From IMG/VR virus record IMGVR_UViG_3300025941_000085, positions 1-27,512 of that record: a DNA stretch of 27,512 nucleotides. One strand, 5' to 3'. The translations under genes were made by a program, and so were the position numbers. The notes under the pieces are model-generated. The model ran no database searches. It was not told the DNA's origin and saw only the letters and a list, made by a program, of their open reading frames with translations. This DNA comes from a virus. This document shows, one piece after another, positions 2,762 through 27,512 of this stretch (positions are counted from its first letter, which is position 1; every line of letters starts with the position of its first letter).

Positions 2762-2780
2762 TGCGGATACTCTTCGGCCA

Positions 2781-2864
2781 TTACTGATCATCGCGCGGAT
2801 TCAACACGTGAAACATCCGCAGTATGAAAATCATCCACGCGAGCCAGGCGAGGAACCAGATCAC
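2781..2864 (-). CDS. Tiny membrane protein (27 aa)
   Basis: A GTG-started 27-residue peptide, mostly one hydrophobic helix (IWFLAWLAWMIFILRMF) followed by HVLNPRDDQ. The GTG overlaps the stop of the HNH-like gene as GTGA and has GGAG about 8 bases upstream. The frame is open further upstream inside the HNH-like gene, but no credible start is there. It resembles in size and topology the 27-aa membrane peptide at 127-210. The four tryptophan/phenylalanine-rich turns point to a bilayer-embedded peptide. The function is unknown. Confidence 0.55.
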   Translation of the reverse strand: MIWFLAWLAWMIFILRMFHVLNPRDDQ

Positions 2865-3535
2865 TGGAGTGCTCCAAGGCTTTGACCCGCTCGACGCCCG
2901 CGGCGATACGCCCGGGGCGGTAGAAGCAATCGGTCTTCTGGCCAGCGATATCGGATTCGCTGGCATATGGTCCCGGGCTTCAATCCAACCCTGGTCTCCC
3001 ATTGTGCGTAGGTCAGCGTCTCGCCGTTATTCGTGAGAGTGCGACTGCTGCGGCGGTTGTTGCTCTGGATGACCCGCGTCGCCCAGCGACAGTTGGACGG
3101 CTCGTAATTGCCATCGTTGTCGCGTCTGTCAATGGAATGACTCGGCGAGGGCCGCTGCCCCATGTCGGCGATGAAGTTCTCGAAGGCGCCCCAGCGTTCA
3201 CACACTCGAATACCGCGACCGCCGTAATCCTTGTACGCCTTTACCTTTGGATTCTCGCAGCGCTGATGCATCGCCACCCAGGCCATGAATTCGGGCGATG
3301 ATTTCCCACCCACGGTTGCACCATGTGTGCGCTTGTGCTGACCGATGATGCATCCGCAGGACTTCGTTTTACCGCTTACGAGATTTTTTTGAGGCGTGAT
3401 CGTTTGCTTGCCGCAGTCGCATCGACAGTGCCAAGCGCTTTCACGACCGCCTATATAGGGGCGCCACTCTGCCCATGCGATTACCGTGAGCATGTGAAAG
3501 CGTCGACCTTCGAGCTTGCTCCGTGGTGACGCCAT
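2861..3535 (-). CDS. HNH-like / AP2-type phage DNA-binding protein
   Basis: The 224-residue protein has an N-terminal zinc-type module (CRCDCG at 37-42 and SCGC at 59-62) and a central YKDYGGRGIRVCERW segment (101-115). It then has HSIDRRDNDGNYEPSNCRWAT (133-153), the His-x-x-Asp...Asn pattern of HNH nucleases, and a C-terminal repeat-like DNA-binding part (NNGETLTYAQW). This domain order is typical of a very common phage family related to homing endonucleases and AP2 proteins. It may cut or only bind DNA; the HNH-like residues are present but catalysis is not proven. Its ATG overlaps the upstream stop as TAATG. Such genes often behave as mobile cargo. Confidence 0.75.
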   Translation of the reverse strand: MASPRSKLEGRRFHMLTVIAWAEWRPYIGGRESAWHCRCDCGKQTITPQKNLVSGKTKSCGCIIGQHKRTHGATVGGKSSPEFMAWVAMHQRCENPKVKAYKDYGGRGIRVCERWGAFENFIADMGQRPSPSHSIDRRDNDGNYEPSNCRWATRVIQSNNRRSSRTLTNNGETLTYAQWETRVGLKPGTICQRIRYRWPEDRLLLPPRAYRRGRRAGQSLGALQ

Positions 3536-3837
3536 TAGACTTTCCTCACGTGTAGGGTGGGCCGATGCAATGGCTGCACGGTGTCGGCCAGTACGTCCAT
3601 CATGCTCATCTGCTCAGTGGGCATCGCGGCCAGGCGAATACCGCGTGCGACATCCGGTATCAATTTGATGTGGCCCTTGCGCTGAAGGGCTTGCAGATGA
3701 TCATGAGCCGCATTGGCAGAGCGATAGCCCATCGCAGTCGCGATCTCGGCACGTGTGGGCGAATAGTCATTCGCCACGATGTAGGCTCGGATGTAACCCA
3801 AGACGCGGGTTTGAGCCGGCGTAAGTTCTGTGCTCAT
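3535..3837 (-). CDS. LexA-type winged-helix DNA-binding protein without peptidase domain
   Basis: Residues 1-70 match the N-terminal DNA-binding domain of LexA: LTPAQTRVLGYIRAYI, then a YSPTRAEIATAMGYRSANAAHDHLQAL recognition region and KGHIKLIPDVARGIRL. LexA proteins are about 200 residues, with a C-terminal Ser/Lys self-cleaving domain; here the protein stops at 100 residues with an unrelated 30-residue tail. It therefore cannot self-cleave and probably acts as a stand-alone transcription regulator, perhaps competing at host SOS boxes or controlling this operon. That role is inference. The start overlaps the upstream stop as ATGA. Confidence 0.75.
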   Translation of the reverse strand: MSTELTPAQTRVLGYIRAYIVANDYSPTRAEIATAMGYRSANAAHDHLQALQRKGHIKLIPDVARGIRLAAMPTEQMSMMDVLADTVQPLHRPTLHVRKV

Positions 3838-4052
3838 GGCTTGAGCTCCGGCCGGTACTCACAAGACACGCGATCCCCGTGGGGAAAGTCCAACTGATGG
3901 ATCTCGGCATATCCTTTCCAGCCGTATACGCAGCGAGGGTCGGCTGAGCCGCCCTGAATCCAATTGCTTCCACAGCGGTACGCTGATACCAGGAGAAAGC
4001 CCATGGCGAAGCCTGCGAGGATGACTGCAACAAATTGAAGGCTGCGCCGCAT
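3834..4052 (-). CDS. Small membrane-anchored or exported protein (72 aa)
   Basis: The N-terminus MRRSLQFVAVILAGFAMGFL gives two arginines followed by a hydrophobic helix of about 18 residues, so it is a signal anchor or uncleaved signal. The remaining 45 residues hold three cysteines (27, 41, 64), two of which could form a disulfide in the periplasm. The start is taken at 4052 because it overlaps the stop of the upstream gene by one base (TGATG). The same frame stays open far upstream, but there it overlaps another gene. Its stop overlaps the LexA-like gene start. The function is unknown. Confidence 0.6.
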   Translation of the reverse strand: MRRSLQFVAVILAGFAMGFLLVSAYRCGSNWIQGGSADPRCVYGWKGYAEIHQLDFPHGDRVSCEYRPELKP

Positions 4053-4282
4053 CAGTACTCGCTCATGTCGGGGATCTCCCGATACCACAGCGCATCGTTG
4101 AACCACCGCCATTGAATGCGCCTCAGCCACACCCTCCTGCCGCCTTCGAGTAATACGGGGTGCCAGGCAAACCAGACCTTCCAGAGTGTTTCGTGCGGTG
4201 TTGGACGGCGCAGCAGATTTATGACTGCAGCAACTGCTATCGTTAGCACTGCGAACGTTCCAAGCCAGATCAATGTGCTCAT
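4052..4282 (-). CDS. Small membrane protein (76 aa)
   Basis: The protein starts MSTLIWLGTFAVLTIAVAAV, a hydrophobic helix of about 20 residues, followed by a basic, tryptophan-rich cytoplasmic tail (LWKVWFAWHPVLLEGGRRVW). A clear AGGGAG ribosome binding site lies about 8 bases upstream of the ATG. It has the size and topology seen in small phage membrane proteins such as holin accessories or exclusion proteins, but nothing decides between these. It is the first intact gene to the left of the attachment region. Confidence 0.6.
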   Translation of the reverse strand: MSTLIWLGTFAVLTIAVAAVINLLRRPTPHETLWKVWFAWHPVLLEGGRRVWLRRIQWRWFNDALWYREIPDMSEY

Positions 4283-4360
4283 TACGGACTCCCTGTGCAG
4301 CTATGTGAGAAGCGTCGCAGTCGGAGTATAGAGGGGTGATTTCTTGCCCTGCTTCGCAGC

Positions 4361-4523
4361 TCATGGCGTCAGCCCCACCTTCGGCAGATACGCCTCCAGC
4401 GCCTTGAGGGCTTCCGGAATGGACTTGCCCAGCGCGTTGTGGCTGCTCTGAGTAGTGCCCAGCCAGACCCGGGCCAGGTATTCGTCCCAGGAGGGTCTTG
4501 GTGACCTGGAGCTGGCGGCTCAT
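4361..4523 (-). pseudogene. Small phage gene with an apparent single-base frameshift
   Basis: An ATG at 4523 has a strong GGAG site 7 bases upstream and begins MSRQLQVTKT. In that frame the following sequence becomes Pro/Gly/Arg-rich and unlike a protein. In the neighbouring frame, the sequence from about 4488 to the TGA at 4361 reads WDEYLARVWLGTTQSSHNAL and on through SIPEALKALEAYLPKVGLTP, with good codon choice. Dropping one C in the run CCCTCC (near 4487-4500) joins the two into a 53-residue protein. This could be a true mutation, a programmed frameshift, or a sequencing error. The family is not recognised. Confidence 0.5.
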
Positions 4524-4622
4524 GCACGTCTCCGATATACAGGCGCATATGATTGATTCTTATCGTTTGCGTTGATACGTTTTGAGACGTTTCCAGACGG
4601 CCCAAAAGCGCCATAACCCATT

Positions 4623-8802: not shown

Positions 8803-8966
8803 TGAAGCCTCCCACCGATTGCCTGTCGCAACTCCATTCCCACCTGTAGCGCTTCGATCTCCAATGCGCTGGCGTCGGCGCCCGCTGCCTTCAACTCTTG
8901 AATGTCGATCCGCAAGGAAGTCAGCCTGCCCCATAGAAGGGCAACGTCTCCGATAGTGACGATCAC
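8799..8966 (-). CDS. Small coiled-coil-like protein (55 aa)
   Basis: From the GTG at 8966 the protein reads VIVTIGDVALLWGRLTSLRI and continues with heptad-like Leu/Ile spacing through QELKAAGADASALEIEALQV. The GTG overlaps the stop of the lipoprotein gene as GTGA and has GGAGG about 8 bases upstream, which is better than the ATG five codons earlier. It is likely a short helical, self-associating protein. The family is not recognised. Confidence 0.55.
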   Translation of the reverse strand: MIVTIGDVALLWGRLTSLRIDIQELKAAGADASALEIEALQVGMELRQAIGGRLQ

Positions 8967-9280
8967 GGCCGAATCCTCCACTCATAGCCGATGGCGACAG
9001 TAGTCAGTTCGCGGGGCCCGCAAATTCCACCAGGGCAAACCTCTCTCCATCCCGAGCCCATGCCGCTGGAAAGGTTGTAACCCTGGCCAACGTCAACGTA
9101 GGCGCCATGAACCTGCCAACGCGCGATGACTTCGGCGTATTGCGCGCCGTAGTTAGTCTGGCTGCCGCCAAAATGTTGACCGATGTGCGAGAGGTGCCCG
9201 ACTTCGGTTCTGACTGTGTTTGGAGCAAGGGCGCAGCCCGAGAGGCTGAGGACCGCGATGGTGGCAAAAGCGCGGATCAT
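8963..9280 (-). CDS. Phage-encoded lipoprotein
   Basis: The N-terminus MIRAFATIAVLSLSGCALAP has an Arg, a hydrophobic stretch and the lipobox LSGC, so Cys16 is the predicted lipidated residue after signal peptidase II cleavage. The mature part (about 90 residues) is rich in beta-forming sequence with many Gly, Tyr and aromatic residues and ends YEWRIRP, like a small outer-membrane-associated barrel or sandwich. Position +2 is Ala, which does not signal inner-membrane retention. In the leftward early operon, a lipoprotein is a candidate for host-surface alteration or superinfection exclusion, but this is inference. The start overlaps the upstream stop as ATGA. Confidence 0.72.
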   Translation of the reverse strand: MIRAFATIAVLSLSGCALAPNTVRTEVGHLSHIGQHFGGSQTNYGAQYAEVIARWQVHGAYVDVGQGYNLSSGMGSGWREVCPGGICGPRELTTVAIGYEWRIRP

Positions 9281-15363: not shown

Positions 15364-15710
15364 TGATTCTGGACATCCCCGAAGCGACACCCTCGCTCAA
15401 CCGCGTATTCCAAGGCCATTGGAGCAGGCGCCATGCGCTGCGTAACAAGTGGGCCTGGCTCGTTCGTGCGGCGCGACTGGAAGCGAAGCTTTTTCCGACC
15501 CAGCCGCTACAGAAGGCGAAGCTGACCATTGAGCGTTGGGGGCCGAAACGGCTCGACCATGACAACTATGTCGCCGGCTGCAAAGGCATGATTGATTCAC
15601 TGAGAGTGGAGGGCTTTATCGTGGATGATTCGCCCGGCCACATTGAGGCGCGGTACATCCAACACATTGGCAAGCGCCGCACACGCGTTTGCATCGAGCC
15701 ATTCACATGA
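15360..15710 (+). CDS. rusA: RusA-family Holliday junction resolvase
   Basis: The 116-residue protein begins MMILDIPEATPSLNRVFQGH and contains RLDHDNYVAGCKGMIDSLRV, then EGFIVDDSPGHIE. This is the RusA signature: the DxDN aspartates, the Lys of GCKG, the Asp of IDSL and the late DD. RusA dimers cut four-way junctions symmetrically; in phages this resolves replication and recombination intermediates before packaging. GGGGGAAAG lies just upstream, and the start overlaps the preceding stop as ATGA. The length agrees with E. coli RusA (120). Confidence 0.9.
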   Translation: MMILDIPEATPSLNRVFQGHWSRRHALRNKWAWLVRAARLEAKLFPTQPLQKAKLTIERWGPKRLDHDNYVAGCKGMIDSLRVEGFIVDDSPGHIEARYIQHIGKRRTRVCIEPFT

Positions 15711-15730
15711 GAATGAAGAATAGGAGACCT

Positions 15731-16312
15731 ATGAACGCAGCGTTGCTTGAGACACAGATTCTGCCCGGGGGCGTTGCCATCAGCGTGGCGCGCGGACGGC
15801 CGCTTCCTGTAGCGATCGTGGAAGTTGCGCGTGAACGTACAAAGGAGCGCGATTCAGCTCTGACGTATAGCCGCAATCGGCTTCTGGCCTGGTCAAAATG
15901 GGCGAAGGAACACCGAGACCAGATTGGCTATCCGACGATCTCCCTTCTCTACCGGGCCATGCAAATGACGAAGGTGGGCATCGTTCGTGGAACGGCTTAT
16001 CCGAGAGCAGTCTCCGACGGGAACGGCATGCAGCACATTGAATACCCCATCAATGCAGACGGGCACGCCACGCGCTCCATGCGTCCGCCAACTATTGGCG
16101 AGGTACCTCCCGAGTTCGTTGAGGTCGACGAAGCAGTGGCTGAAGTGCCTGCCAAACCGCGCCAGGTCGGCATCGCCCACTATTTCACCTACGGCCCGAT
16201 TGAGGAACGAGTAAAGCAGACTCCGTACAAGCGAGCTCGCTACATGCAACTGCTTGAGACATTCGAGTACTCGGTTTTCGTCGCGCTGAAGGCTGCATCG
16301 CCTCATGAATGA
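15731..16312 (+). CDS. Q-like late antitermination protein
   Basis: The 193-residue protein contains RNRLLAWSKWAKEHRDQIGY (about 44-63), like the LLxWxxWxxxxxxxxGYP block of phage Q proteins. Near its end VDEAVAEVPAKPRQVGIAHY and KRARYMQLLETFEYSVFVAL resemble the sigma-70 region-4-like helix-turn-helix of antitermination proteins. Its place after rusA and immediately before two strong terminators and the late genes is exactly that of lambda Q. AGGAG lies 5 bases before the ATG at 15731; upstream in-frame ATGs at 15707 and 15713 have no such site. The family match is by pattern only. Confidence 0.6.
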   Translation: MNAALLETQILPGGVAISVARGRPLPVAIVEVARERTKERDSALTYSRNRLLAWSKWAKEHRDQIGYPTISLLYRAMQMTKVGIVRGTAYPRAVSDGNGMQHIEYPINADGHATRSMRPPTIGEVPPEFVEVDEAVAEVPAKPRQVGIAHYFTYGPIEERVKQTPYKRARYMQLLETFEYSVFVALKAASPHE

Positions 16313-16514: not shown

Positions 16515-16592
16515 GGATGGCACACGAAATAAATTAGGCGTCTAGACGATTTTTGATAGAAACTCGCCACACGTGAAATTGTCAGCATCAGG

Positions 16593-16619
16593 AGCCCGGG
16601 CCAAAACCCCGGGCTTTTT
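16593..16619 (+). terminator. Intrinsic terminator 1 of the late control region
   Basis: AGCCCGGG (16593-16600) pairs with CCCGGGCT (16608-16615) around the loop CCAAAAC, followed by a T-run to 16619. It should stop rightward transcription unless antiterminated. Confidence 0.85.
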
Positions 16620-16708
16620 CATTTCCGCGCTCGGGACAACACACGCCCATATTCTGGCCTTTAGCCCGGCACGCGCGGACCTTTTCTCTCACGCTCGCCC
16701 CCTAAGTT

Positions 16709-16740
16709 CCCCGGCGGCTTCGGCCGGGGTTTTCTATTTT
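16709..16740 (+). terminator. Intrinsic terminator 2, just before the GH5 gene
   Basis: CCCCGGC (16709-16715) pairs with GCCGGGG (16723-16729) around a GGCTTCG-type loop, followed by TTTTCTATTTT. It ends about 10 bases before the next ATG, so the late genes lie immediately beyond it. Together with terminator 1 it makes a tandem block for Q to override. Confidence 0.78.
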
Positions 16741-16749
16741 GGAGCCTGA

Positions 16750-18255
16750 ATGAAGTCTGTCGCCGTCTCGGGAAACCATCTGGTCGATGAAACCGGCCAA
16801 CTGGTCCAGTTGCGCGGCGTCAACATCTCAGCGCTCGAGTTCTACCCGATCGACAATGCCCAGGCGCCGCCGGGCGGGAAGGCGTTTGATTATTGGGGCG
16901 GGCAGTCACCGAACCTGAAGTCGATCGCGGGGTGGACCGCCAATGCAATCCGCCTACCGCTGAACGAGCAGAGCTATCTGGGGCAGACCTGCACCGACGC
17001 GAACGGCGCAACCAAGCTGCTCGCCGATCCGCTGGGCACGTATCGCAGCGTGGTAAAGACCACCGTGGACCAGGCGACTGCGCTCGGCATGGCGGTCATC
17101 CTGGACCTGCACAAGAACACGGCCAACGCGACCATCAACGGTGCGCTGGTCACGCCGCTCTCAAATACCTCCGGTCAGTCGGAGATGGCGGACGCGGACA
17201 ACTCGATTGCATTCTGGACCGCGGTTGCGAATGACTACAAGGGATATCCCAACGTCATTTTCGACCTGTTCAACGAACCGCACATCGACAATTTCCAGAA
17301 TCCCACTTCCTTTGCGCCGAACCCCGGCACCAGCATTCCTACTGGTCTGAACCCGGAAGCGTCCTGGGCATGGGCGGTCTGGCGCGACGGCGGCACGGGC
17401 AAGCTGATCTACGGCGACAACGAAGTCTTCCAGCAGCCGTACCAGTCGGCTGGCATGCAGGCGATGTTGAACGCAGTCCGCGCGACCGGCGCGACCAACG
17501 TCATCATGGCCGGCGGCGTCTCTTGGGCGCAGGACAGCTCGCTCTGGCTGCAGTTCCGGCCCATCGATCCGGCGGGCCAGTTGGCGTGCTCGTGGCATGC
17601 GTACCCCTCCCAGCAGGACGCGAGTTACCCCAGCTTCCCGCCGGGTACCTGGTGGGGCATTGCCACGGGCGCGTACGACTGGATCCAGGCGATTCTCGTC
17701 GCAGGGTTCCCCGTCATCATCGGCGAGACGGGCAATGGGGTCTCCAGTCAGTTGTTGCCGAAACTGCTTCCCTGGGCGGATCAACACAACGTGTCGGTCT
17801 TCGCCTGGTCGTGGAATCCCGGCTGGGGATCCTTGGTATCCGATCAGAACGGGACGCCAGTGGGCGACGGTCCGGCGTACAAATCTTGGCTCCAATCCCA
17901 TGCCGCAACCAGCGGCGGAGGCGGCGGTGTGGCTAACCAGTTTACGAAACTCACTCTCTCGGCTCTTCCGACGACGCGGTCGGATGGCACCGCTGTCAGC
18001 GCCAGTGATCTCGGGTCAGCCAACGTCTACAAGAACGGCGCCAAGTACGCCACCATCAACGCCCCCCTGACGGTGGGTGAGACGTGGACTGACACCGCAG
18101 CCGCAGTCACCGGCGACAAGTACACCGTTTCCATCAACGACACGCAGATTCCTGCGGTCGAAGGCGCGCAGTCTGGGCCCTACATCGTCGGATCAGTAGT
18201 GGTGGTGCCGAAGGCGGCGTTGTCTGCTCCGACAATCTCGGGCGTCACGGCGTAA
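16750..18255 (+). CDS. GH5 glycoside hydrolase (cellulase-like) with C-terminal beta domain
   Basis: The 501-residue protein has a GH5 TIM-barrel (about 1-385). Visible family residues are Arg68 (AIRLPL), His121 (LDLH), Asn175-Glu176 (FDLFNEPH, acid/base), His283 and Tyr285 (WHAY), Glu326 (IIGETGNG, nucleophile) and Trp353/355 (FAWSW). All key catalytic positions are present, so it should hydrolyse a beta-linked glucan or similar polysaccharide. A GGGGG linker at about 389-393 leads to a beta-sandwich-like tail (FTKLTLSALPTTRSDGTAVS onward). There is no signal peptide, consistent with a virion-attached enzyme. GGAG lies 6 bases upstream. It is the first late gene; a host capsule or biofilm substrate is inference. 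Confidence 0.88.
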   Translation: MKSVAVSGNHLVDETGQLVQLRGVNISALEFYPIDNAQAPPGGKAFDYWGGQSPNLKSIAGWTANAIRLPLNEQSYLGQTCTDANGATKLLADPLGTYRSVVKTTVDQATALGMAVILDLHKNTANATINGALVTPLSNTSGQSEMADADNSIAFWTAVANDYKGYPNVIFDLFNEPHIDNFQNPTSFAPNPGTSIPTGLNPEASWAWAVWRDGGTGKLIYGDNEVFQQPYQSAGMQAMLNAVRATGATNVIMAGGVSWAQDSSLWLQFRPIDPAGQLACSWHAYPSQQDASYPSFPPGTWWGIATGAYDWIQAILVAGFPVIIGETGNGVSSQLLPKLLPWADQHNVSVFAWSWNPGWGSLVSDQNGTPVGDGPAYKSWLQSHAATSGGGGGVANQFTKLTLSALPTTRSDGTAVSASDLGSANVYKNGAKYATINAPLTVGETWTDTAAAVTGDKYTVSINDTQIPAVEGAQSGPYIVGSVVVVPKAALSAPTISGVTA

Positions 18256-18259
18256 CGAC

Positions 18260-18466
18260 ATGTTGATCAACGTTGACCTGGGCGACGGGGTACTCCGTCA
18301 AATGGATGACTCCGAACTCACGCCCAATCACTCTGTTATCGACAACGATCACGAGCGAACCGCGATCACTGAATTTCAACTCAACGGCAAAGTTGTTCAC
18401 CGCTCCGTGCATGTCCATCTGAAAGAGGGCATCGGCATTGAGGGCGTTCTCGGGAGTATCGGATAA
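18260..18466 (+). CDS. Hypothetical protein (68 aa) after GH5
   Basis: The protein begins MLINVDLGDGVLRQMDDSEL and is acidic with beta-like blocks (RTAITEFQLNGKVVHRSVHV). It starts five bases after the GH5 stop and ends overlapping the next start by one base (TAATG). The ribosome binding site is weak, suggesting dependence on coupled translation. It might be a small virion or assembly factor of the surface cluster. No family is recognised. Confidence 0.58.
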   Translation: MLINVDLGDGVLRQMDDSELTPNHSVIDNDHERTAITEFQLNGKVVHRSVHVHLKEGIGIEGVLGSIG

Positions 18467-18936
18467 TGGCGAACACGCAAGCAATTTGCGGATCCTTCAA
18501 AAGTGAGTTGATGCTCGGCGCCCATCAGTTGGGAACCGTGACCATTGTCTCGCGTACGAGTCTAACCGCTCCAACGACCGACACCGTCAAAGCGGCACTG
18601 TACTTGGCATCCGGCTCTCTCGGAGCAGGCACCACTGCATACAGCGCGACCAGTGAGGTATCCGGCACCGGTTACACGGCTGGCGGTGTCACGGTTACCA
18701 ACGCCACGGCGCCCAGTACCAGCGGTACGACTGGAATCTGGACGCCATCTGCCTCCATCGTCTACTCGAGTGTCACGCTCACTACTTCGTTCGATACCGT
18801 GCTGATCTACAACAGTACGCAGTCGAACAGAGCGATCGGCGTTTATACGTTTGGTGCCCAAACAATCACGGCCGGCACATTCACCCTCACGATGCCCACC
18901 AATGACGCTACGCATGCGCTGATTCAGCTCGCGTAA
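18466..18936 (+). CDS. Ser/Thr-rich phage structural-type protein (156 aa)
   Basis: The protein contains KAALYLASGSLGAGTTAYSA, then SEVSGTGYTAGGVTVTNATA, DTVLIYNSTQSNRAIGVYTF and GTFTLTMPTNDATHALIQLA. I recognise this series of blocks as a widespread phage protein of unknown exact role, rich in beta-strands and usually found among structural genes. Thr, Ser, Gly and Ala dominate and only one Cys is present, as in external virion proteins. No signal peptide is seen. It probably decorates the head or tail, which is inference. Confidence 0.62.
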   Translation: MANTQAICGSFKSELMLGAHQLGTVTIVSRTSLTAPTTDTVKAALYLASGSLGAGTTAYSATSEVSGTGYTAGGVTVTNATAPSTSGTTGIWTPSASIVYSSVTLTTSFDTVLIYNSTQSNRAIGVYTFGAQTITAGTFTLTMPTNDATHALIQLA

Positions 18937-18952
18937 CTGAGTATCACCTGCC

Positions 18953-19495
18953 ATGAAAAACACCTGGAACGGTACACTCATCACCCAGCAGGCCGCCGGC
19001 ACTGCGCTTTCAAATACCACGACACCAACGAGTCTGTTGAATGGTCAAGCGAAATTCACGCTGCCCGCGCAGTTTTTGGACACGATCGGCAGTAAGCTTC
19101 GTGTCAGAGCTTCGGGGCGAATTTCAACGGCCGCTTCGACACCGGGTACGTTAACGCTCGATATCCGCTTCGGATCGGTCGTTGTGTTCAATGGCGGTGC
19201 ATCAGGAACCCTGGCGACATCAGCTACCAATCTGACCTGGAAGTTCGAAGCTGATCTCTACATTCTGACAGTGGGCAGTAGCACCACTGCGACGGCCTAT
19301 GGAACCGGAATTTTGACAAGTGCGGCGCTTTCGGCCACGACCCCCATTATGTTGTTGCCTACCAGCGCGCCTGGAGCCGGGACTGGATTCGATTCGACGG
19401 CTGCATCTGTGGTGGATCTCTTCGGTACCTTCTCCGTAGCGAATGCCAGCAATTCGATCCGTTGCGACGATTACGAACTGATCTCATGCAACTAA
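18953..19495 (+). CDS. Beta-rich phage structural-type protein (180 aa)
   Basis: The protein reads MKNTWNGTLITQQAAGTALS, then PTSLLNGQAKFTLPAQFLDT and GSKLRVRASGRISTAASTPG, with further alternating beta segments to its end. LRVRASGRIST and GTLTLDIRFGSVVVFNGG look like strands of a jelly-roll or lectin-like fold. I have an impression of similar sequences among phage virion proteins but cannot name a family. It is adjacent to, and similar in composition to, its neighbours, so it is probably co-assembled with them. Confidence 0.6.
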   Translation: MKNTWNGTLITQQAAGTALSNTTTPTSLLNGQAKFTLPAQFLDTIGSKLRVRASGRISTAASTPGTLTLDIRFGSVVVFNGGASGTLATSATNLTWKFEADLYILTVGSSTTATAYGTGILTSAALSATTPIMLLPTSAPGAGTGFDSTAASVVDLFGTFSVANASNSIRCDDYELISCN

Positions 19496-20287
19496 ATGGA
19501 TGCCGCGCTGCTGCGCTATCGTTGGACGGTACCCCCTGCGGCCGCAATTCCTGCGCTCGTTCAACAGATTGACGATCGGTGGCCCGGCCAGAATACCGCT
19601 CCTCCTCCGGATAACTCGCAGAGTCTCACGCGCACCATTGCGCTACCCGGCAATATCACGGCAGGCAATTCGATTGTCATACAGGTGTGTCATTTCAATT
19701 CAGCGACCAGTCCAGGCGGAACGGTCTCGTTCGCTGACAATCTGGGGAACACTTTTCCGGCCGCAGTCGGGCGAGTGGATGACCTCGATGCATCGGCCAA
19801 CATGTCGTTGTATCTCTTTTTCATGCCGCGCATCACCACTGGTGGCGCTCAGACGATCACGGCCACATTCCCATATTTGGAATGGCAGAGTTTGCTGGTC
19901 ATGGAATGGTCTGGCCTCGCGAATCAGGCGCCGTTGGATTGGAATGGGAGTGTCCAGACTTCGACTACCACAGCATCAGACTTTCTAACGACCGGTAACA
20001 TTGTCGGCGGGTCCAATGCAGGGATCTTCATTGGACAGTGCCTGAATGGCACTGATCAGAATACGGCCAATGGCGGAGGTGTAGGGTCTCCGAATTGCGG
20101 AACTGGGTTCACGGCAGTCAACAGTGGCACGACCGACTGGAGCGGCATCGAAAATTCATTTGTAGGTCCGGCCTGCCAACCAGAGTACCTATACAGCACG
20201 AATTTAGGTACTCGGGCTATGACCTATACAGCTAAGAAGGCTGCCGAGAGCTATGTCTCGATAGGCATGGCACTCAAGGCAGGATGA
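19496..20287 (+). CDS. Beta-sandwich phage surface-type protein (263 aa)
   Basis: The protein has blocks TIALPGNITAGNSIVIQVCH, GTVSFADNLGNTFPAAVGRV, MSLYLFFMPRITTGGAQTIT and ATFPYLEWQSLLVMEWSGLA. This order (strand, then a VSFxDNLGNTF motif, then a FxxPxxxxGGxxTITxTF strand and EWSG) recurs in phage and bacterial extracellular proteins and is also echoed in the N-terminal domain of the next gene. It therefore probably shares a common domain with its neighbour. The ATG directly follows the upstream TAA and lacks a clear ribosome binding site. It could be an adhesin or tail appendage. Confidence 0.62.
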   Translation: MDAALLRYRWTVPPAAAIPALVQQIDDRWPGQNTAPPPDNSQSLTRTIALPGNITAGNSIVIQVCHFNSATSPGGTVSFADNLGNTFPAAVGRVDDLDASANMSLYLFFMPRITTGGAQTITATFPYLEWQSLLVMEWSGLANQAPLDWNGSVQTSTTTASDFLTTGNIVGGSNAGIFIGQCLNGTDQNTANGGGVGSPNCGTGFTAVNSGTTDWSGIENSFVGPACQPEYLYSTNLGTRAMTYTAKKAAESYVSIGMALKAG

Positions 20288-20288
20288 T

Positions 20289-22451
20289 ATGGCTGTAAGT
20301 GTTCTGCAGGAGCGGCAAAATTCCCTAAATTCGGCTAACGCAGCTTCGATAGCGCTGGCTTTTTCGAATCCGGTTACTCCGGGAAGTTCGATTCATGTCA
20401 TTTGCTCAGGTGTCGATACTGCAACTTCATTCACCTGCTCGGATAGTGTCAATGGGTCGTATGGAGCGGCGCTCGATACGATCGACCAGGCAGGCGATAC
20501 TCAGCGTTTAGCGCATTTCAAGTTTGATAATACGGCTGCCGGTACTCCGACAGTCACGATTACCCCCAATACCTCGATCGGATTCCTCGCGATCTGGATC
20601 CGCGAAATTGGTGGAACCTCCGGGTATGATTCTGCTCACAAGACAGCACTGCAGACTGCGCTCGGGAATGGCACCGACAATATAACCACCGGCACCCAGG
20701 CTCCTAACAATCAGCCTGGACTGTTGAGTGCGCTGGGAGTTTGTACATCCAATTTCGTGATCCCCGCTGCTGGAACCGGATTCACATCCGGAATCAGCGG
20801 CTGGTCATTCACAATCACCAATACTGCGGTCTCAGAAAGTAAGCGCTATACGTCGCTGTCGGCGATTGCGGCCACTTTCTCGAACAGCGGCGGCTCGAAC
20901 AATTTCGCCACGCTGGCTGCCTTCTTCAAGGAATCGGCTTCAGCCGCGGTCGCGATCGGATGCTCAGCGCAAATCGGTCCCGGCGTCTCTCCAGACAGCC
21001 GACAGATGTTCAGGGCGCGACTGCTTTCGAATATCGCAAGCCCGAACGTTACGGTTGGACTGACTGGCCAATCGAGTTCTTTTTCTAGTGGAGCGCTCAC
21101 TGGATCGAGTGATATCGCACTGTCGGGGCAGGCTGCCGCATTTGCAGGTGGCCAGATCACCGCAGTGCTACCTGTGGTGGGCGCCTCGGTTTACAGTGGT
21201 CCGGGTATTTCGCCTGACTATCGGCAGTTGTTTCGAGCGCGTACGCTCTCGAGTAGTGTCTCCGCGGATGTCACTGTCGGACTGACAGGGCAGTCGGCCG
21301 GATTTGGCGCTGGAAGTTTGGGTCCGTCGAGCGCAGTCGCAGCGACAGGAACTTTAATCACCTCATCTGCCGGCAGCGTATTTGCGGCCTCGCAGATTAT
21401 TGTCACCGGCCAGCCGGCCAGTACTTCGGCGGGATCGGTTGCGATTTCGTCGCAGGTTGCGGTTACAGGGCTGTCGGCTTCGTTCAGCGCCGGCACAGTT
21501 AGTCCGTCTGGGGCTGGATCAGCAACGCTGACCGGTCAGGCAGCAACATTCGCGCCCGGTACTGCTGTCGTGGTATCCACGTTGGCTCTCACGGGTCAAC
21601 GATCCACCTTTGCCAGTGGCACTACCGCTGCGGGATTGAATGCGGGGCTGATAGGCCAAGCATCTACATTTAGCGCAGGGTCGCTCAGCGCGAATATCAC
21701 AGTTGGTCTGACTGGGCAGAGTTCGACCTTTTCGGCTGGCAACGTCTCGGCGCCGAACACAGTTTTCGCCGCGCTGACGGGTCAATCGAGCACTTTCAGC
21801 ACCGGTTCGCTGATTACGAGCTCGGTGGCAGTGGCAGTTGGTCAGGCTATTACCTCGAGCGCTGGGACTCTCGCTGCTGCAAAGAGTGTCGCGCTGACTG
21901 GCTCTGGAATCACCAGCGCACCGGGAACATTGCTCGGTAGCTACGCGGTTGGATTGACGGGCCAATCGGCCACTTTTGCGGCCGGTCTCGTTCTTCCGCC
22001 TGGTGATAAGACAGCGTCCTTAACCGGATCGGTGGCGACGTTTCGCACGGGTGCGATTCTTCCGATCGGCGCGGTATTGAGTGGAACACCACGCTACGTC
22101 GTCAGAAGACTGAAAAAGCGCATCTTTACGGTGAGTGCAGTGAGCTATTTGGAATTCCCTCCGAAAGACAGCGCCGAAGCGGTCAAACTGGAATTCGATT
22201 TCGCAGTTGATCTGGATACCGGCGTAACGCTGTCGGGCACCCCGATTGTATCTGTTACGGTGAGTGGCGCCGATCCTGCGCCAAGCAACATACTCAATGG
22301 CTTGCCGCGATTCGATTTGACTTCGACGCAGGTGATCGTGCCTGTAAGCGGTGGAGTGGCAAATTGCGACTATGACATCAAGGTTGTGGTGCCCACAACT
22401 GATTCGCTGACCGTCTTGGCGCTCAACGGGATTCTGCCGGTCCGAGCATGA
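20289..22451 (+). CDS. Large repeat-rich surface protein (720 aa)
   Basis: Three parts are visible. Residues 1-215 form a beta-sandwich domain related to the previous gene's product (TFTCSDSVNGSYG, TPTVTITPNTSIGFLAIWIR). Residues 225-590 hold 15 copies of a LTGQSxTFxAG unit, mostly 20 residues apart, and a longer duplicated block SPDxRQxFRAR at about 234-244 and 308-318. Residues 600-720 are a basic, then beta-rich end (KDSAEAVKLEFDFAVDLDTG), like the Ig-like domains at the ends of phage proteins. The regular Gly/Ser/Thr repeats suggest a long rod or stalk. It is probably a tail fibre or head fibre; no trimerisation or enzymatic motif is evident. AGGA lies upstream. Confidence 0.7.
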   Translation: MAVSVLQERQNSLNSANAASIALAFSNPVTPGSSIHVICSGVDTATSFTCSDSVNGSYGAALDTIDQAGDTQRLAHFKFDNTAAGTPTVTITPNTSIGFLAIWIREIGGTSGYDSAHKTALQTALGNGTDNITTGTQAPNNQPGLLSALGVCTSNFVIPAAGTGFTSGISGWSFTITNTAVSESKRYTSLSAIAATFSNSGGSNNFATLAAFFKESASAAVAIGCSAQIGPGVSPDSRQMFRARLLSNIASPNVTVGLTGQSSSFSSGALTGSSDIALSGQAAAFAGGQITAVLPVVGASVYSGPGISPDYRQLFRARTLSSSVSADVTVGLTGQSAGFGAGSLGPSSAVAATGTLITSSAGSVFAASQIIVTGQPASTSAGSVAISSQVAVTGLSASFSAGTVSPSGAGSATLTGQAATFAPGTAVVVSTLALTGQRSTFASGTTAAGLNAGLIGQASTFSAGSLSANITVGLTGQSSTFSAGNVSAPNTVFAALTGQSSTFSTGSLITSSVAVAVGQAITSSAGTLAAAKSVALTGSGITSAPGTLLGSYAVGLTGQSATFAAGLVLPPGDKTASLTGSVATFRTGAILPIGAVLSGTPRYVVRRLKKRIFTVSAVSYLEFPPKDSAEAVKLEFDFAVDLDTGVTLSGTPIVSVTVSGADPAPSNILNGLPRFDLTSTQVIVPVSGGVANCDYDIKVVVPTTDSLTVLALNGILPVRA
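21060..22052 (+). repeat. Fifteen coding repeats of about 60 bases
   Basis: Units of the form LTGQSxTFxAG start at residues 258, 278, 332, 352, 372, 392, 414, 434, 454, 474, 496, 516, 536, 556 and 578 of the 720-aa protein. The spacing is 20 residues with occasional 22 and one 54 that spans the second SPDxRQxFRAR block. The 20-residue step suits a beta-solenoid or repeated beta-hairpin stalk. DNA copies have diverged, so recent slippage is unlikely. Confidence 0.8.
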
Positions 22452-23233
22452 TCGGCATCAAGGTCACGGCGGACATCTCGAAGGTAGAGCGGCTTTTCGA
22501 CAATCTGCGCAAGGATCAAGTGCCATTTGCTACCGCGCTCGCCCTGACGAAGACAGCACAGTACGTTCAGGGTGAGCTCACCAAGGTGATGGATACGGCG
22601 TTTGATCGACCGACGCCCTATACGAAGGATGCGCTTTACGTAAAGCCCGCGACGAAGCAGGTACAGGTAGCGATCGTCAAAGTCAAGGACGTGACTTTCA
22701 AGGGAAATCCAGCAGTTCGCTATCTATTTACGGGCATCACCGGAGGAACCCGGAATCTCAAGGGATTTGAGAAGTTATTGCAGCGGGCTGGGGTAATGCC
22801 TGGTGGCTGGTATGCCGTCCCGACTTCGGCAGCTCCACTCGATAGCTATGGCAATGTCCCTGGCAGCGTAATCATGAAGATTCTCTCTCAGTTGCAAGCT
22901 GCTCGTGACTCGCTGACCAATGAGAGTGCTGCCCTAAAGGCGCGGCGTAATCGCAATCGCACCACGGGTCGTTACTTTGCTGTGATGCCCAATACCGAGA
23001 GAGGAAAGCTGAAGCCCGGCATCTACGAGCGGCTCAACTTTCGAGCATCTGCTGGGAAAGGCGCTGTCGGAACTGGTTCAGGCAGTATTCGGCCCATCTT
23101 TATCTATTCGCAGAAGGCCCCCAATTACTCAGCGCGGTATGACTTCTATGGAATGGCGCGCCGCCTTGCTGCCGAGCGATACCCCATCGAAGCCGAGTCG
23201 GCGATCAAGAGAGCATTGGAGACAGCACGTTAG
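22448..23233 (+). CDS. Conserved phage tail-associated-type protein (261 aa)
   Basis: The protein begins MIGIKVTADISKVERLFDNL and contains ATALALTKTAQYVQGELTKV, then FDRPTPYTKDALYVKPATK, RNLKGFEKLLQRAGVMPGGW and GIYERLNFRASAG. I recognise the FDRPTPxTxxALYVKPATK, LQRAGVxPxGxYAVP and LxPGIYER series as a common protein of proteobacterial siphoviruses, sometimes compared with lambda minor tail protein Z. A role in tail or head-tail joining is possible but unproved. The ATG overlaps the repeat protein's stop as ATGA. Basic residues are frequent. Confidence 0.6.
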   Translation: MIGIKVTADISKVERLFDNLRKDQVPFATALALTKTAQYVQGELTKVMDTAFDRPTPYTKDALYVKPATKQVQVAIVKVKDVTFKGNPAVRYLFTGITGGTRNLKGFEKLLQRAGVMPGGWYAVPTSAAPLDSYGNVPGSVIMKILSQLQAARDSLTNESAALKARRNRNRTTGRYFAVMPNTERGKLKPGIYERLNFRASAGKGAVGTGSGSIRPIFIYSQKAPNYSARYDFYGMARRLAAERYPIEAESAIKRALETAR

Positions 23234-23282
23234 AAGACTCCATATGCAAGCCTCTACGGCGCGTTTATAGAGGCGTGTTATA

Positions 23283-23312
23283 TTGGCAGTCTCATACACG
23301 TCATTATATAAC
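23283..23312 (+). promoter_or_regulatory. Promoter candidate for the packaging genes
   Basis: TTGGCA (23283-23288, five of six bases of the -35 consensus) and TATAAC (23307-23312, five of six of the -10 consensus) are separated by 18 bases. The -10 box lies between the arms of a 7-base inverted repeat, ACGTCAT (23298-23304) and ATGACGT (23313-23319), so a symmetric DNA-binding protein could block it. Confidence 0.5.
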
Positions 23313-23363
23313 ATGACGTCCTTTGGCCTCCCAGAGCCCACATGTGGCATGTGTAGAAGTTAC

Positions 23364-23406
23364 AAACCAACATCGCGGGTCCTCAAAACCAACACGGTTT
23401 GCGGGT
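23364..23406 (+). repeat. Paired AAACCAACA / GCGGGT repeats before terminase
   Basis: AAACCAACA occurs at 23364-23372 and 23386-23394, 22 bases apart. Each is followed by GCGGGT (23375-23380, 23401-23406). A shorter ACCAACA recurs at 23462-23468, over the terminase start. Repeats two helical turns apart beside a Nu1-like gene resemble the R sites that small terminase binds in lambda cosB. Confidence 0.4.
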
Positions 23407-23467
23407 AAGTCGAACCCCGTATGTTGCGGATGTACAACGAAAAAAGCCGCCTTAACCGAACACCAAC

Positions 23468-24049
23468 ATGAAGGTTAGCGCGCAGGAGTACGCAGAGCTT
23501 CGGGGCCATACAAAGCCTTGGGTCAGCCAGCAGATTGATGCCGGAATGCCCGTCAAGCGCCTCAAGGGTCGCAAAGTGGCCTACGAAATCGACACGGCCA
23601 CAGCCATTCAGTGGGAAATCGACCGGATCAGGGAGGGCTCGAAGCCTGGTTCGCAGCGGGAGCGGCTTGCCAAGGAGCAGGCAGACAAATTCGAGCTCGA
23701 GAATGCGCGCCGGCGCGGCGAACTCATCCTGTCCTCACAGGTGGCCGAGGTGCTTTCGACGCTCGGGGCAGATCTGGCCCAGCGCCATGATGGGTTGCCG
23801 GGACGTCTAGCCAATGAACTTGCAGGAATCAGCGACGCCGCCCAAATCCGAGAACGACTCCTCGACGAGCTCCGGATCGTCCGCGGCGCCTTCGCCGATG
23901 CCGTCGATAAGCTCGCGGACGCTCTCGGCGAAGGTGCGGATGCTGGCCCAGATAAGCCGGCCTCCCCGAAAGAGAACGCCAAACGAGTGGGCGGACGAAA
24001 GCCGCGTGCTGCCGGCCGGAAGCGCCGAGCCCGGGCCGTGGAACAGTAG
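23468..24049 (+). CDS. terS: Terminase small subunit (Nu1-like)
   Basis: The 193-residue protein has an N-terminal winged helix-turn-helix (MKVSAQEYAELRGHTKPWVS, then QQIDAGMPVKRLKGRKVAYE), as in lambda Nu1, which binds cos. A charged helical middle (RLAKEQADKFELENARRRGE LI) and helix-rich oligomer region follow, ending in a basic tail (KRVGGRKPRAAGRKRRARAV) not typical of Nu1. It should recognise the packaging site and load the large subunit. The ATG has no clear Shine-Dalgarno sequence. The gene overlaps the large-subunit gene by about 110 bases, an unusually long overlap that is nevertheless common in this terminase type. Confidence 0.82.
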   Translation: MKVSAQEYAELRGHTKPWVSQQIDAGMPVKRLKGRKVAYEIDTATAIQWEIDRIREGSKPGSQRERLAKEQADKFELENARRRGELILSSQVAEVLSTLGADLAQRHDGLPGRLANELAGISDAAQIRERLLDELRIVRGAFADAVDKLADALGEGADAGPDKPASPKENAKRVGGRKPRAAGRKRRARAVEQ

Positions 24050-25874
24050 CCGCACTCCGTATTGTCTTCCGATATTCGCTGCTCTACGCACGTACAAGCG
24101 CGTGGTGGCTGTCATGGGCAGCCAAATGGGCAAGACCGAAGGGCTATTCAACGTCATCGGTCACAAACTGGATGACGATCCGGCGCCAGTTCTGTACATC
24201 GGACCGACGAAATCGAACATTGATGGTGTGATTGAGCCGCGCATCGCACAGATGTTGCGATCGGCGCCACGGCTGTGGGCGAAGACGGAGAAAGGCCGCA
24301 AAGCGCACAAGCTCGTCAAGCGAGTGGCCGGTGTGACATTGCGCCTGGCGTGGGCGGGCTCGCCGACAGAACTCGCATCGCAGCCCGCGCATACCGTGCT
24401 GGTCGACGAAGTCGATCGTATGGAGCCGATTCCGGGCGAGGGCGATGCGGTCACGCTGGCCGAGGCGCGCATTGCGACTTATCCGGATGGTCGATTGATC
24501 ATTACCTCGACGCCGACCGAGGGGAACGTTGAGGTGGAGAAGCATCCCGAGACCGGCACTGAGCATTGGAAAGTCGCCGAGACAAAGGATCTGCTGAGCA
24601 CGGTCTGGAAGCTCTTCCAGGAGGGCACGCGGTACGAGTGGGCCGTTCCCTGTCCGCATTGCAACGATTATTTCGTGCCGCGGTTCCGTCAACTGTGGTG
24701 GCCGGATAAAGCGACAGCCCAGCAGGCGCGACGGGAAGCGCGGCTGATCTGCGCTTCGTGTGGCGTGCAGATTCCAGATTCGGACCGCTCGCGGATGAAT
24801 GCCCGCGGCGTCTATCTGGCGCCTGGACAGAAGGTGGTTGACGGCGTGGTTGTTGGAGCCGTCCCCGAATCGGACACCGCCACCTTCTGGGTGTCAGGGA
24901 TCATGTCGCCGTGGCGCACGTTGGGTGCGCTAGCTTCATCGTGGGTCCGGGCCGTTGCGAGTGGTGATCAAGGCCGGATACGAGCGGTCATCAACACTGG
25001 ATTTGGCGAGCCCTTCGCCTTTCGCGGTGAAGCGCCGCCGGCTGCCGCCGTGCGCGCCTGCGCTGGTGTGTATGCGCAGGGTCAGCTTCCGGCCGGCATC
25101 AAGGTTTTGACCTGCGGTGTCGACGTTCAGAAGGCGCGTCTCGTCTTTGCGGTCCGGGGATGGGGCTATGGAATGGAGTCCTGGCTCATCGACTACGGGG
25201 ATATCTGGGGCGAGACCTCGGAGCCTGCCGTTTGGAACGAATTGGAGCAGTTACTCGAGCGCGAATATGGCACGGAGAAGCCGATCCGGATTCGGCGGAT
25301 GGGGATCGATTCGGGGTACCGCCCGGGGGACAAGTGGCGCCGGCCAGATAACCTGATTTACGACTTTTGCTTGGCGCACCGACGCGCCTTGCCGACGAAG
25401 GGCCGCGACCGGTTGTTGAAACCGCTGCAGCCATCGCTAATTGACGTGACCTTCCGCGGCCAGGTGCACAAACAGGGTTTGCAGCTCTGGCACATCGATA
25501 GCGACTATTTCAAGAGTTGGGTGCAGAACGCGCTGGTAGTCGCAGACGGTCAACCGCGGCGATTCTGGGTGCCGAGCGATGTTACGGATGATTACTGCCA
25601 GCAGTTGACCTCGGAAGCGCGAGTTCCGAAACCCTCCGGGTTAGCAACCTGGGTGAAGATCCGCAGCGAAAACCATTTCCTGGATTGCGAGGCGATCAAC
25701 GTCGCTATGGCGCAGTCTCTGGGCGTGCATCGCAAGCGCGTGAAGACAGCGTTGCCGCCTGCTGAAGACAAGCAAACCTCACCCGAGGTAGTTGAAAAGG
25801 CGCCGGCATTCAATGCGCCAGTGATGCCCCGGGCGAACCGATTTCGCAGCCGGAATTGGACCAAGCAATGGTGA
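23940..25874 (+). CDS. terL: Terminase large subunit (GpA-like)
   Basis: The 644-residue protein belongs to the lambda GpA family. It has ISRPPRKRTPNEWADESRVL at the start, Walker A-like GSQMGKT (60-66), Walker B VLVDEVDRM (153-161) and a coupling motif ITSTP (188-192). A zinc-type pair of CPHC (238-241) and CASC (271-274) lies between the domains. The nuclease part has Asp395 (GVDVQ) and Asp457 (GIDSGY). It cuts concatemers at the packaging site and drives DNA into the head using ATP. The ATG at 23940 is chosen because GAAGG lies nearby and it places the family N-terminus correctly; the frame is open back to 23814 inside the small subunit. Confidence 0.92.
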   Translation: MLAQISRPPRKRTPNEWADESRVLPAGSAEPGPWNSSRTPYCLPIFAALRTYKRVVAVMGSQMGKTEGLFNVIGHKLDDDPAPVLYIGPTKSNIDGVIEPRIAQMLRSAPRLWAKTEKGRKAHKLVKRVAGVTLRLAWAGSPTELASQPAHTVLVDEVDRMEPIPGEGDAVTLAEARIATYPDGRLIITSTPTEGNVEVEKHPETGTEHWKVAETKDLLSTVWKLFQEGTRYEWAVPCPHCNDYFVPRFRQLWWPDKATAQQARREARLICASCGVQIPDSDRSRMNARGVYLAPGQKVVDGVVVGAVPESDTATFWVSGIMSPWRTLGALASSWVRAVASGDQGRIRAVINTGFGEPFAFRGEAPPAAAVRACAGVYAQGQLPAGIKVLTCGVDVQKARLVFAVRGWGYGMESWLIDYGDIWGETSEPAVWNELEQLLEREYGTEKPIRIRRMGIDSGYRPGDKWRRPDNLIYDFCLAHRRALPTKGRDRLLKPLQPSLIDVTFRGQVHKQGLQLWHIDSDYFKSWVQNALVVADGQPRRFWVPSDVTDDYCQQLTSEARVPKPSGLATWVKIRSENHFLDCEAINVAMAQSLGVHRKRVKTALPPAEDKQTSPEVVEKAPAFNAPVMPRANRFRSRNWTKQW

Positions 25875-25937: not shown

Positions 25938-26507
25938 ATGTTGAGTTCGCGCATTCCGTCGCAGATTCTGCAGGGCGATTCAGCGAGCTGGGTGGATTCT
26001 GCATTTACGAATGACAGCGGAAACTCATTCAATAGTTCGAATGCGGCGCTCAAATACACGATTTCCGGTCCCTCGACTCCGCTGGTGCTGACAGCCACGG
26101 CCAGCGGGACTGATTGGACAACGACACTGACGACCGTCCAGAGCGCGGCGCTCCTGCCCGGCACGTACTGGTGGCAGATGCAGACATTTGCCACCGGAGT
26201 GCGCTTCACCGCCGCTCAGGGCGAGCTCATCGTCAAACCGGATCTGGCTACGGTCAGTGCAAACTATGACGGTCGCTCGGTAGCAGAGATTGCCCTTGCG
26301 CAAGCCCGCGCAGCCTATGCCACATTTTCAGCGAGTGGCGGCGTGATGAAGATGTATCGCATCGGCAGTCGCGAAATGTCGTTCCAGGATCTGAGTCAGA
26401 TTCGCGAACAGGTGGATTATTGGAGTGCGCAAGTAGCCGCGGAGCAGGCTACCGCGGATGGTTCCAAGAGTCGCCGGCTCCATATCCGTTTTGATCGAAT
26501 CCGATGA
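25938..26507 (+). CDS. Head-tail connector-like protein, gpW/DUF6148-like C-terminus
   Basis: The 189-residue protein has an N-terminal beta domain (residues 1-105, with WTTTLTTVQSAALLPGTYWW) and a helical C-terminal part (110-170: DGRSVAEIALAQARAAYATF, then YRIGSREMSFQDLSQIREQV). The C-terminal part, with GSRxMSFxDLxxIRxQVxYW, resembles gpW or DUF6148 head-tail proteins normally encoded between terminase and portal. A fusion of a beta domain with this module may adapt it to the portal. The ATG overlap with the portal gene (ATGA) supports the boundary. The ribosome binding site, GGAG, is somewhat far upstream. Confidence 0.6.
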   Translation: MLSSRIPSQILQGDSASWVDSAFTNDSGNSFNSSNAALKYTISGPSTPLVLTATASGTDWTTTLTTVQSAALLPGTYWWQMQTFATGVRFTAAQGELIVKPDLATVSANYDGRSVAEIALAQARAAYATFSASGGVMKMYRIGSREMSFQDLSQIREQVDYWSAQVAAEQATADGSKSRRLHIRFDRIR

Positions 26508-27512
26508 ACGTCGAACAGATTCTCAAAGGCATCGCACGATTGCGCGGTGAAAAGCCGGCGGCGCGCGTGGCTGCGCCTTCGTTCAGCCGTATGTACGCGA
26601 ATGCGCGCCCGACGATGGCGCGGAGTGGGTTTGCGAGCCCAAACACGTCGGCCGACGCTGAACTGATTTCCAGCCTGCTCGGGCTGCGCGCAAAGTCGCG
26701 ACAGCTCGTGCGGGATGCGGCATTTGCGAAGAATGCGCGCCGCATCATTCAGAACAACGTCATTGGCACGGGCATTCGGCTACAGAGCTTCGTGCAGACA
26801 GCCCGCGGCACGCTCGCGACTCGTGTGAACGATGCGGTAGAGGCTGCGTGGGAAGACTGGTGCTGCGCTGAGAATTGCCACACCGGCGGGACAGTCCATT
26901 TCCACGACCTCGAGCGCTTGGCTGTCGGACAGGTCTTTGAAGCGGGCGAGATCTTCATCCAGATTCATCGGAGCGCTTTCGGCAAGTCGAAAGTGCCGAT
27001 CGCGCTCGAGATCATTGAGGCCGAGCGCGTTCTGGATGGCTTCACGCAGCCAACCATGGGCCCACAGACGGGAAACACGATCCGGATGGGCATCGAGCAC
27101 GACCGATTCGGTCGGCCCATTGCTTATTACGTGCGTGACCTCCATCCCGGCGACCCGCGCACGATGGCAGGAACCAACGAGTTCATCAGGCGCATTCCGG
27201 CCGAGGACATGTTTCATCTGCGCGTGGTGGACCGCTGGCCGCAGACGCGCGGGGAACCGTGGTTGCACGCTGTGGCGGGCAAGCTTGGTGACATGAACGG
27301 CTATAGCGAGGCGGAGATTATCGCCGCCCGCGGCGGCGCCAATTACCTAGCCACGATCGAGACGCCGGACAGTACCGAATCATTGGGCGAGAAGCAGGAC
27401 GACGGCTCCTATGATATTTCGCTCGAGCCTGGCACCGTCGAGCGACTGAACCCCGGTGAGAAGCTGACCTTCGTTGCACCGAACCGGCCAAATTCTGCGC
27501 TCGACCCGTTCA
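26504..27512 (+). CDS. Lambda-type portal protein, 3' end outside the window
   Basis: The first 336 codons are present and open to the right edge. Blocks include AKSRQLVRDAAFAKNARRII, QNNVIGTGIRLQ, VGQVFEAGEIFIQIHRSAFG, PIALEIIEAERVLDG, IRMGIEHDRFGRPIAYYVRD and PAEDMFHLRVVDRWPQTRGE PW. This is the lambda gpB (Phage_portal_2) family, which forms the dodecameric ring through which DNA enters the head. The gene follows terminase and the connector-like gene, the normal order. The ATG overlaps the preceding stop as ATGA. Confidence 0.9.
   Translation, partial: MNVEQILKGIARLRGEKPAARVAAPSFSRMYANARPTMARSGFASPNTSADAELISSLLGLRAKSRQLVRDAAFAKNARRIIQNNVIGTGIRLQSFVQTARGTLATRVNDAVEAAWEDWCCAENCHTGGTVHFHDLERLAVGQVFEAGEIFIQIHRSAFGKSKVPIALEIIEAERVLDGFTQPTMGPQTGNTIRMGIEHDRFGRPIAYYVRDLHPGDPRTMAGTNEFIRRIPAEDMFHLRVVDRWPQTRGEPWLHAVAGKLGDMNGYSEAEIIAARGGANYLATIETPDSTESLGEKQDDGSYDISLEPGTVERLNPGEKLTFVAPNRPNSALDPF

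Follow-up and report, generated by a model that had tools for sequence, protein, structure and literature searches.

What use a phage has for a cellulase is the question raised by a gene that lies where early and structural genes meet in IMG/VR record IMGVR_UViG_3300025941_000085. The record was analysed over its whole length of 27,512 bases (the window); it is classed as viral and is a genome fragment. Its leftward genes include those for a DNA methyltransferase, an HNH endonuclease, a lambda-type integrase and a repressor. In the rightward direction, a CII-like regulator is followed by replication genes (primosomal protein, helicase and primase), a RusA-like resolvase and the GH5 gene, and then by a block of five genes, a minor tail protein, TerS, TerL and a lambda-family portal (Table 1). 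Since both an integrase and a repressor are present, the phage looks temperate, and its layout looks lambda-like. The nearest relative of the gpA-type terminase was that of Vibrio phage VP882 (41%). The TerS and TerL frames overlap by 236 nt, and VP882 is annotated with a similar overlap.

Table 1. Positions of the features of the window that are discussed in the text.
Feature	Position	Strand	Evidence or occurrence
Terminator-like hairpin and T run, between early genes and GH5	16594..16619	+	Sequence, RNA fold
Second terminator-like hairpin and T-rich tail, abutting the GH5 ribosome-binding site	16709..16739	+	Terminator scan, RNA fold
GH5 (cellulase-like) gene, 501 aa	16750..18255	+	ORF, ribosome-binding site, Pfam PF00150 (E 4e-33)
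GH5 catalytic domain, residues 12-357	16783..17820	+	Pfam match; named residues checked; alignment of 40 sequences; fold similarity
Beta-rich C-terminal tail of Ig-like appearance (residues 389-501), preceded by a Gly-rich linker	17914..18252	+	
68-aa block gene, 4 nt after GH5	18260..18466	+	Homologue in 81/87 viral loci
156-aa phrog_644 protein	18466..18936	+	Found in 212 viral stretches
180-aa block protein	18953..19495	+	91-95% identity in five other viral contigs
263-aa block protein	19496..20287	+	85-95% identity in six viral contigs; also in L002
720-aa block protein	20289..22451	+	Conserved N-terminal ~215 aa, TGQ-type repeats
Minor tail/tail-completion protein (phrog_1924)	22448..23233	+	E 7.7e-69
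Terminase small subunit TerS (Nu1-like)	23468..24049	+	PF07471
Terminase large subunit TerL (gpA)	23814..25874	+	PF05876, PF20454, phrog_15
Portal protein (lambda family), truncated by record end	26504..27512	+	PF05136

The GH5 reading frame was found to span exactly 16750-18255, with an ATG start and a GGAG ribosome-binding site just 5' of it. The ATG is preceded by an in-frame TGA at 16747; there is therefore no upstream extension of the frame and no missed signal peptide. The barrel begins at the very N-terminus of the protein, and this end is not hydrophobic, in agreement with the original prediction that the enzyme lacks a signal peptide. The only Pfam family detected was PF00150 (Cellulase), which matched over profile positions 1-270 of 272 with 115.5 bits (cut-off 23.5); NCBIfam and PHROGs held no model for the enzyme. 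The original prediction had also listed nine active-site residues, and all of them (R68, H121, N175, E176, H283, Y285, E326, W353 and W355) were present at those numbers. In an alignment of 40 GH5 homologues eight of the nine were invariant, and the other, H121, was conserved in more than 90% of the sequences. The acid/base glutamate of the Asn-Glu-Pro motif corresponds to N175-E176-P177, and the nucleophile, a glutamate late in the barrel, to E326.

A (beta/alpha)8 barrel was predicted by AlphaFold, with the GH5 part of the model mostly confident (pLDDT of at least 70 for 282 of the 501 residues). The best PDB matches obtained with Foldseek were GH5 endo-glucanases, among them 4HTY, CjCel5C and SdGluc5_26A (E down to 6.5e-17, probability 1.00), with about 15-24% identity to the nearest solved structures. 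These sequence-based analyses confirmed that the ORF encodes a GH5 glycoside hydrolase with a predicted intact active site. Its proposed beta-glucan-type relationship was upheld by the endo-glucanases among the nearest structures and by relatives that carry a CBM2 domain.

A single-sequence search of genome contigs for relatives of the enzyme found nothing. A profile search of GTDB genomes gave 188 GH5 relatives, of which 80 were kept. These had 31-52% identity to the window enzyme and were mostly actinobacterial, at 31-36%; one, at 52%, lay on a gammaproteobacterial MAG contig. Most had a hydrophobic N-terminal extension (70 of the 80, with six of the remaining ten running off a contig edge), and a CBM2 cellulose-binding domain was found in eight of the ten that were scanned. 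The actinobacterial secreted CBM2-GH5 cellulases, of which that of Streptantibioticus cattleyicolor pSCAT is an example, have a homologous catalytic domain, with 31-36% identity over nearly the whole barrel, but differ from the window enzyme in having a signal peptide, mostly a CBM2 and no phage-type tail. In contrast, both the window enzyme and its closest GH5 relative (68%), encoded on a 106-kb phage contig (L002) that is mostly unrelated otherwise, start at the barrel and have neither CBM2 nor a signal-type extension.

These two enzymes formed a strongly supported clade (100/99) with the 52% relative on the gammaproteobacterial contig (L007, JANYIY010000406.1). The latter differs from the window enzyme in its proline-rich N-terminal extension, and its gene adjoins one for a 2OG-Fe(II) oxygenase on a contig of 4.2 kb, which may be bacterial or viral. 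Six viral GH5 sequences did not form one group in the tree, so the GH5-type barrel would appear to have been acquired by viruses more than once, although several of the branches concerned are long or weakly supported. The third-position GC of the GH5 gene was 0.80, compared to 0.55-0.74 in six other window genes, which hints at a recent acquisition.

The C-terminal beta domain that had been predicted was recovered in part. Residues from about 389 to 501 were modelled as beta strands, with low confidence (pLDDT about 30-70); such a domain is therefore plausible rather than established. Pairwise alignment with the L002 enzyme, which has the same barrel-first design, ended at residue 390, and the two tails differ. 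No match to the window tail was found in the phage or viral-contig collections. Two clues bear on how such tails might dock. In its block region L002 itself encodes a small protein similar to the tail of its GH5 enzyme (phmmer 2.7e-4; for hhalign 9e-5, with no shuffle as good in 100), and the window tail gave a weak match, of 20 aligned columns only, to a stand-alone 113-aa protein in L108, another viral contig; this short match beat 100 shuffles and was one of several comparisons made.

The enzyme had been proposed to be the first late gene. Gene order is in agreement with this proposal, since the rightward structural run begins here, and the two upstream hairpins fit it. Terminator-like sites in the region were not above chance, being about as frequent in shuffled sequence, and the hairpins thus agree with late antitermination-type control and go no further. 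From the replication genes to TerS (16515-23468) no recognisable holin, endolysin or spanin was found. In Pseudomonas phage MD8, with which the window shares the phrog_1924 gene, the corresponding stretch is occupied by the lysis cassette, and the lysis genes of the window phage may lie beyond the record end. The gene at 15689-16312 was considered by eye as a Q-type antiterminator; it matched no family.

The genes that follow GH5 recur in other phages. Across 87 loci, most of which had been retrieved with the 156-aa gene as query, homologues of the 68-aa and 156-aa genes were present in 81 and 85, respectively, and in most of the fetched loci the former precedes the latter. All five genes (18260-22451) occur together in four contigs (L102, L103, L105 and L108) and in part in two others (L106 and G001). 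In the four complete cases the 68-aa gene was 50-57% identical to that of the window, the three genes after it 73-95% and the 720-aa gene, over the matched parts, 63-72%. The contigs that bear the block have different portals (phrog_12082 in L102, P22-like in L103, SU10-like in L108 and lambda-family in the window) and unrelated terminase families, and the block itself is variously placed after the portal gene, before TerL or before a tail-completion gene. In Roseobacter phage CRP-603 the homologue of the 156-aa gene has the coat gene on one side and a putative tail-fibre gene on the other. Because of this placement and the recurrence of the genes, we infer that the block is virion-associated, its products probably being particle parts.

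The 720-aa protein contains many degenerate TGQ-type repeats that vary between phages, and its first ~215 residues are 74-87% conserved. Its C-terminus weakly matched the Gp77 fibre-tail adaptor. The protein had no match in named phages, and its matches in the larger locus set, which were obtained with low-complexity filtering off, may be repeat-driven. No close viral contigs were found for the adjoining minor tail gene; our searches of sequence collections were pattern-based and miss distant relatives.

A profile scan of the 87 other loci, most of them with block genes, found no GH5; the block therefore does not need the enzyme. Beside its portal gene, L002 carries homologues of the 263-aa (88%) and 720-aa genes, as well as a phrog_644 gene related to the 156-aa one. 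Since L002 has both GH5 and block homologues and is otherwise unlike the window, the enzyme and the block genes have both reached two otherwise unlike phages. Beyond these, one further small shared gene was detected. At 8963-9280 on the minus strand the window encodes a 105-aa small protein, of which a 44% homologue is found at the far end of L002.

The surroundings of GH5 genes differed between viral contigs. In L002 the gene is about 40 kb away from the block genes and is flanked by an HD/vWA-like gene and a tRNA array. GH5 was found two genes before TerL in L088, one small ORF after the major capsid gene in L089 and beside a tail-fibre-like gene in L090. In L091, a 34-kb viral contig, a 1,124-aa protein (1227-4601) joins GH5 to a malectin-like stretch, Fn3 and BNR repeats; it has tail-protein-like matches, and its gene lies some genes upstream of TerL. 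The N-termini of the GH5 proteins of L090 and L091 look like those of secreted proteins or lipoproteins, which suggests that these two are exported and not assembled into the particle; viral GH5 proteins therefore need not all work alike.

Only three of 50,697 named-phage records matched the window enzyme; two of them were the same phage and one looks bacterial. This scarcity accords with the original prediction that GH5 is unusual in phages, but the surprise was overstated, since such enzymes have already been described (PMC9544554, PMC6786970, PMC10465536). Erwinia phage S6 (Schitoviridae) requires bacterial cellulose for infection, and its gp095 is a GH5 cellulase shown to degrade carboxymethylcellulose, its location in the particle being left open in that study (PMC9544554). 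Like the window enzyme, S6 gp095 and its relative cel of Erwinia phage PEp14 are phage GH5 proteins that have beta domains in addition and whose genes lie amid those of the virion, a likeness that rests on description for S6 and on alignment for PEp14. In PEp14, cel comes after the run of portal-to-tail genes and before a gene for an EPS depolymerase. Both phages are of a different type from the window phage, and cel has only 26% identity to the window enzyme over about 200 residues. The domain order also differs: the GH5 domain of PEp14 is C-terminal, behind choice-of-anchor D-type domains, whereas that of the window is N-terminal and is followed by a tail. A GH5 endomannanase of a permafrost-soil virus (Bog_ctg_46288) was expressed, found to be active and treated as an auxiliary metabolic gene (PMC6786970); by description its gene, like that of the window, has viral genes on both sides, in this case on a viral contig from soil, but the enzyme, unlike the proposed glucanase, acts on mannan. 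A rumen virus GH5 cellulase, active on carboxymethylcellulose and likewise interpreted as an auxiliary metabolic gene (PMC10465536), is by its description also encoded on a viral contig with viral genes on both sides, its source being the rumen. Phage and viral GH5 enzymes are thus already known, and the window enzyme adds one more.

We favour the reading that the window enzyme is a virion-associated depolymerase directed at a cellulose-like host polysaccharide, and put its probability at roughly 0.55. The protein would be a retaining endo-beta-glycanase, most likely an endo-beta-1,4-glucanase, which the phage took from a lineage of secreted bacterial cellulases of the CBM2 type and remodelled to fit the virion. 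The Ig-like-looking tail would have replaced the lost signal peptide and CBM2, and would probably attach the enzyme to some part of the virion (fibre, neck or tail) that the neighbouring block encodes. On host contact, the cellulose-like exopolysaccharide would be hydrolysed, with E176 as acid/base and E326 as nucleophile, and the enzyme, presumably expressed late, would by opening this layer at adsorption give the phage access to the cell surface.

Such a coat-cutting role is probable because GH5 adjoins recurrent phage genes that probably encode particle parts. The five block genes begin 4 nt after GH5, and the enzyme gene is co-directional with them and with the minor tail, terminase and portal genes. 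That the protein is part of the virion, as had been proposed, is indicated indirectly by this adjacency, by its lack of the signal peptide and CBM2 of the bacterial homologues and by other viral contigs in which GH5 lies close to a terminase or capsid gene. Also in favour of the depolymerase reading are the presence of both enzyme and block homologues in L002, the likeness of the L002 tail to a block-region protein and the example of S6, a phage that depends on host cellulose and carries a GH5 enzyme. Against the depolymerase reading count the distance between GH5 and block in L002, the 87 loci that lack GH5, the weak and short match of a tail modelled with low confidence, and the export-type N-termini in L090 and L091.

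The main rival, which we regard as the strongest alternative but still as unlikely, is release at lysis: a soluble enzyme, made late and held in the cytoplasm, would be freed with the progeny and, unbound to particles, loosen a biofilm or plant-derived matrix for their spread. A protein that lacks a signal peptide and whose docking domain is uncertain would suit this role, as would a gene that sits where MD8 has its lysis cassette and that is unlinked from structural genes in L002. These points are set against the direct, co-directional abutment of GH5 and a recurrent phage gene block, the sharing of block genes as well as the enzyme by the window phage and L002, and three further contigs (L088, L089 and L091) in which a terminase or capsid gene is close to GH5. 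Improbable, in our estimate, is the alternative that a temperate phage supplies its lysogen with a cellulase for feeding on plant polysaccharide. The integrase, repressor and CII-like genes are consistent with it, as are the publications in which the GH5 genes of soil and rumen viruses were taken to be auxiliary metabolic ones (PMC6786970, PMC10465536). Host-gene relatives pointing to a secreted metabolic cargo had been named beforehand as a result that would count against a virion role, and the wider family does consist of secreted cellulases, but the phage copy lacks the secretion and binding parts. With neither signal peptide nor CBM2 there is no evident route from a living lysogen to an extracellular polymer, and the gene starts a presumed late operon rather than occupying the position of an independently transcribed moron.

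Phages reuse enzyme folds as binding domains, and the barrel might accordingly be a catalytically idle one kept as a carbohydrate-binding adhesin; we consider this very improbable, since every catalytic and subsite residue that was checked is retained. Hardly credible is a misjoining of a bacterial cellulase gene to a phage contig during assembly. The raised third-position GC would fit such an artefact, but phage genes in the same direction flank GH5 on both sides, the next only 4 nt away, and the 68% homologue lies in an independent phage contig that also carries genes of the neighbouring block.

If the depolymerase reading is correct and the enzyme is virion-bound, GH5 barrels have been taken up by phages as depolymerases on more than one occasion, here with a domain order unlike that of S6, and hosts with a cellulose-like surface polymer are to be expected. 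Host entry rather than metabolism is suggested by the missing secretion and cellulose-binding parts together with the virion-gene setting, a caution that viral glycosidases are not by default "auxiliary metabolic genes" of the carbon cycle. The less expected part is the association of GH5 with a block that crosses between phages with unrelated heads. A speculative and rather doubtful extension is that the approximately five virion-surface genes (18260-22451) form a portable host-entry module, moving between phages with unrelated heads, portals and terminases, into which exchangeable hydrolases plug: GH5 in the window and possibly a TIM-barrel enzyme with Fn3 domains in L108 and L105. Docking would be through C-terminal Ig-like tails derived from the block's own small proteins. 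If true, this would be a way for phages to swap the glycan that they cut other than by tailspikes. Searches that start from the recurrent block could also bring to light other phages whose entry enzymes are exchangeable.

Stretches in L108 (786-2444) and L105 (2-1078) precede the block, close to the place that GH5 takes up in the window. The C-terminal part of a 552-aa Fn3-containing protein of L108 may be a TIM-barrel hydrolase; its single-sequence model had a pLDDT of 43, and the fold matches, mostly to glycosidases, are a lead only.

A gammaproteobacterial host was considered for the window phage. Within the sample of that class, a close GH5 was found in the MAG of L007 only, and a close terminase neither in this MAG nor in the 368 other genomes; no host is therefore claimed. 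The record MT835565.1 (L004, "Bacteriophage sp.") was rejected as a phage precedent, as the ORFs around its GH5 gene read as ordinary gut-bacterial genes. They include a topoisomerase-like pair and a formate-tetrahydrofolate ligase-like gene, and the record looks like a mislabelled bacterial contig. The tRNA array directly beyond the GH5 homologue of L002 (9788-16711) comprises 23 tRNA genes.
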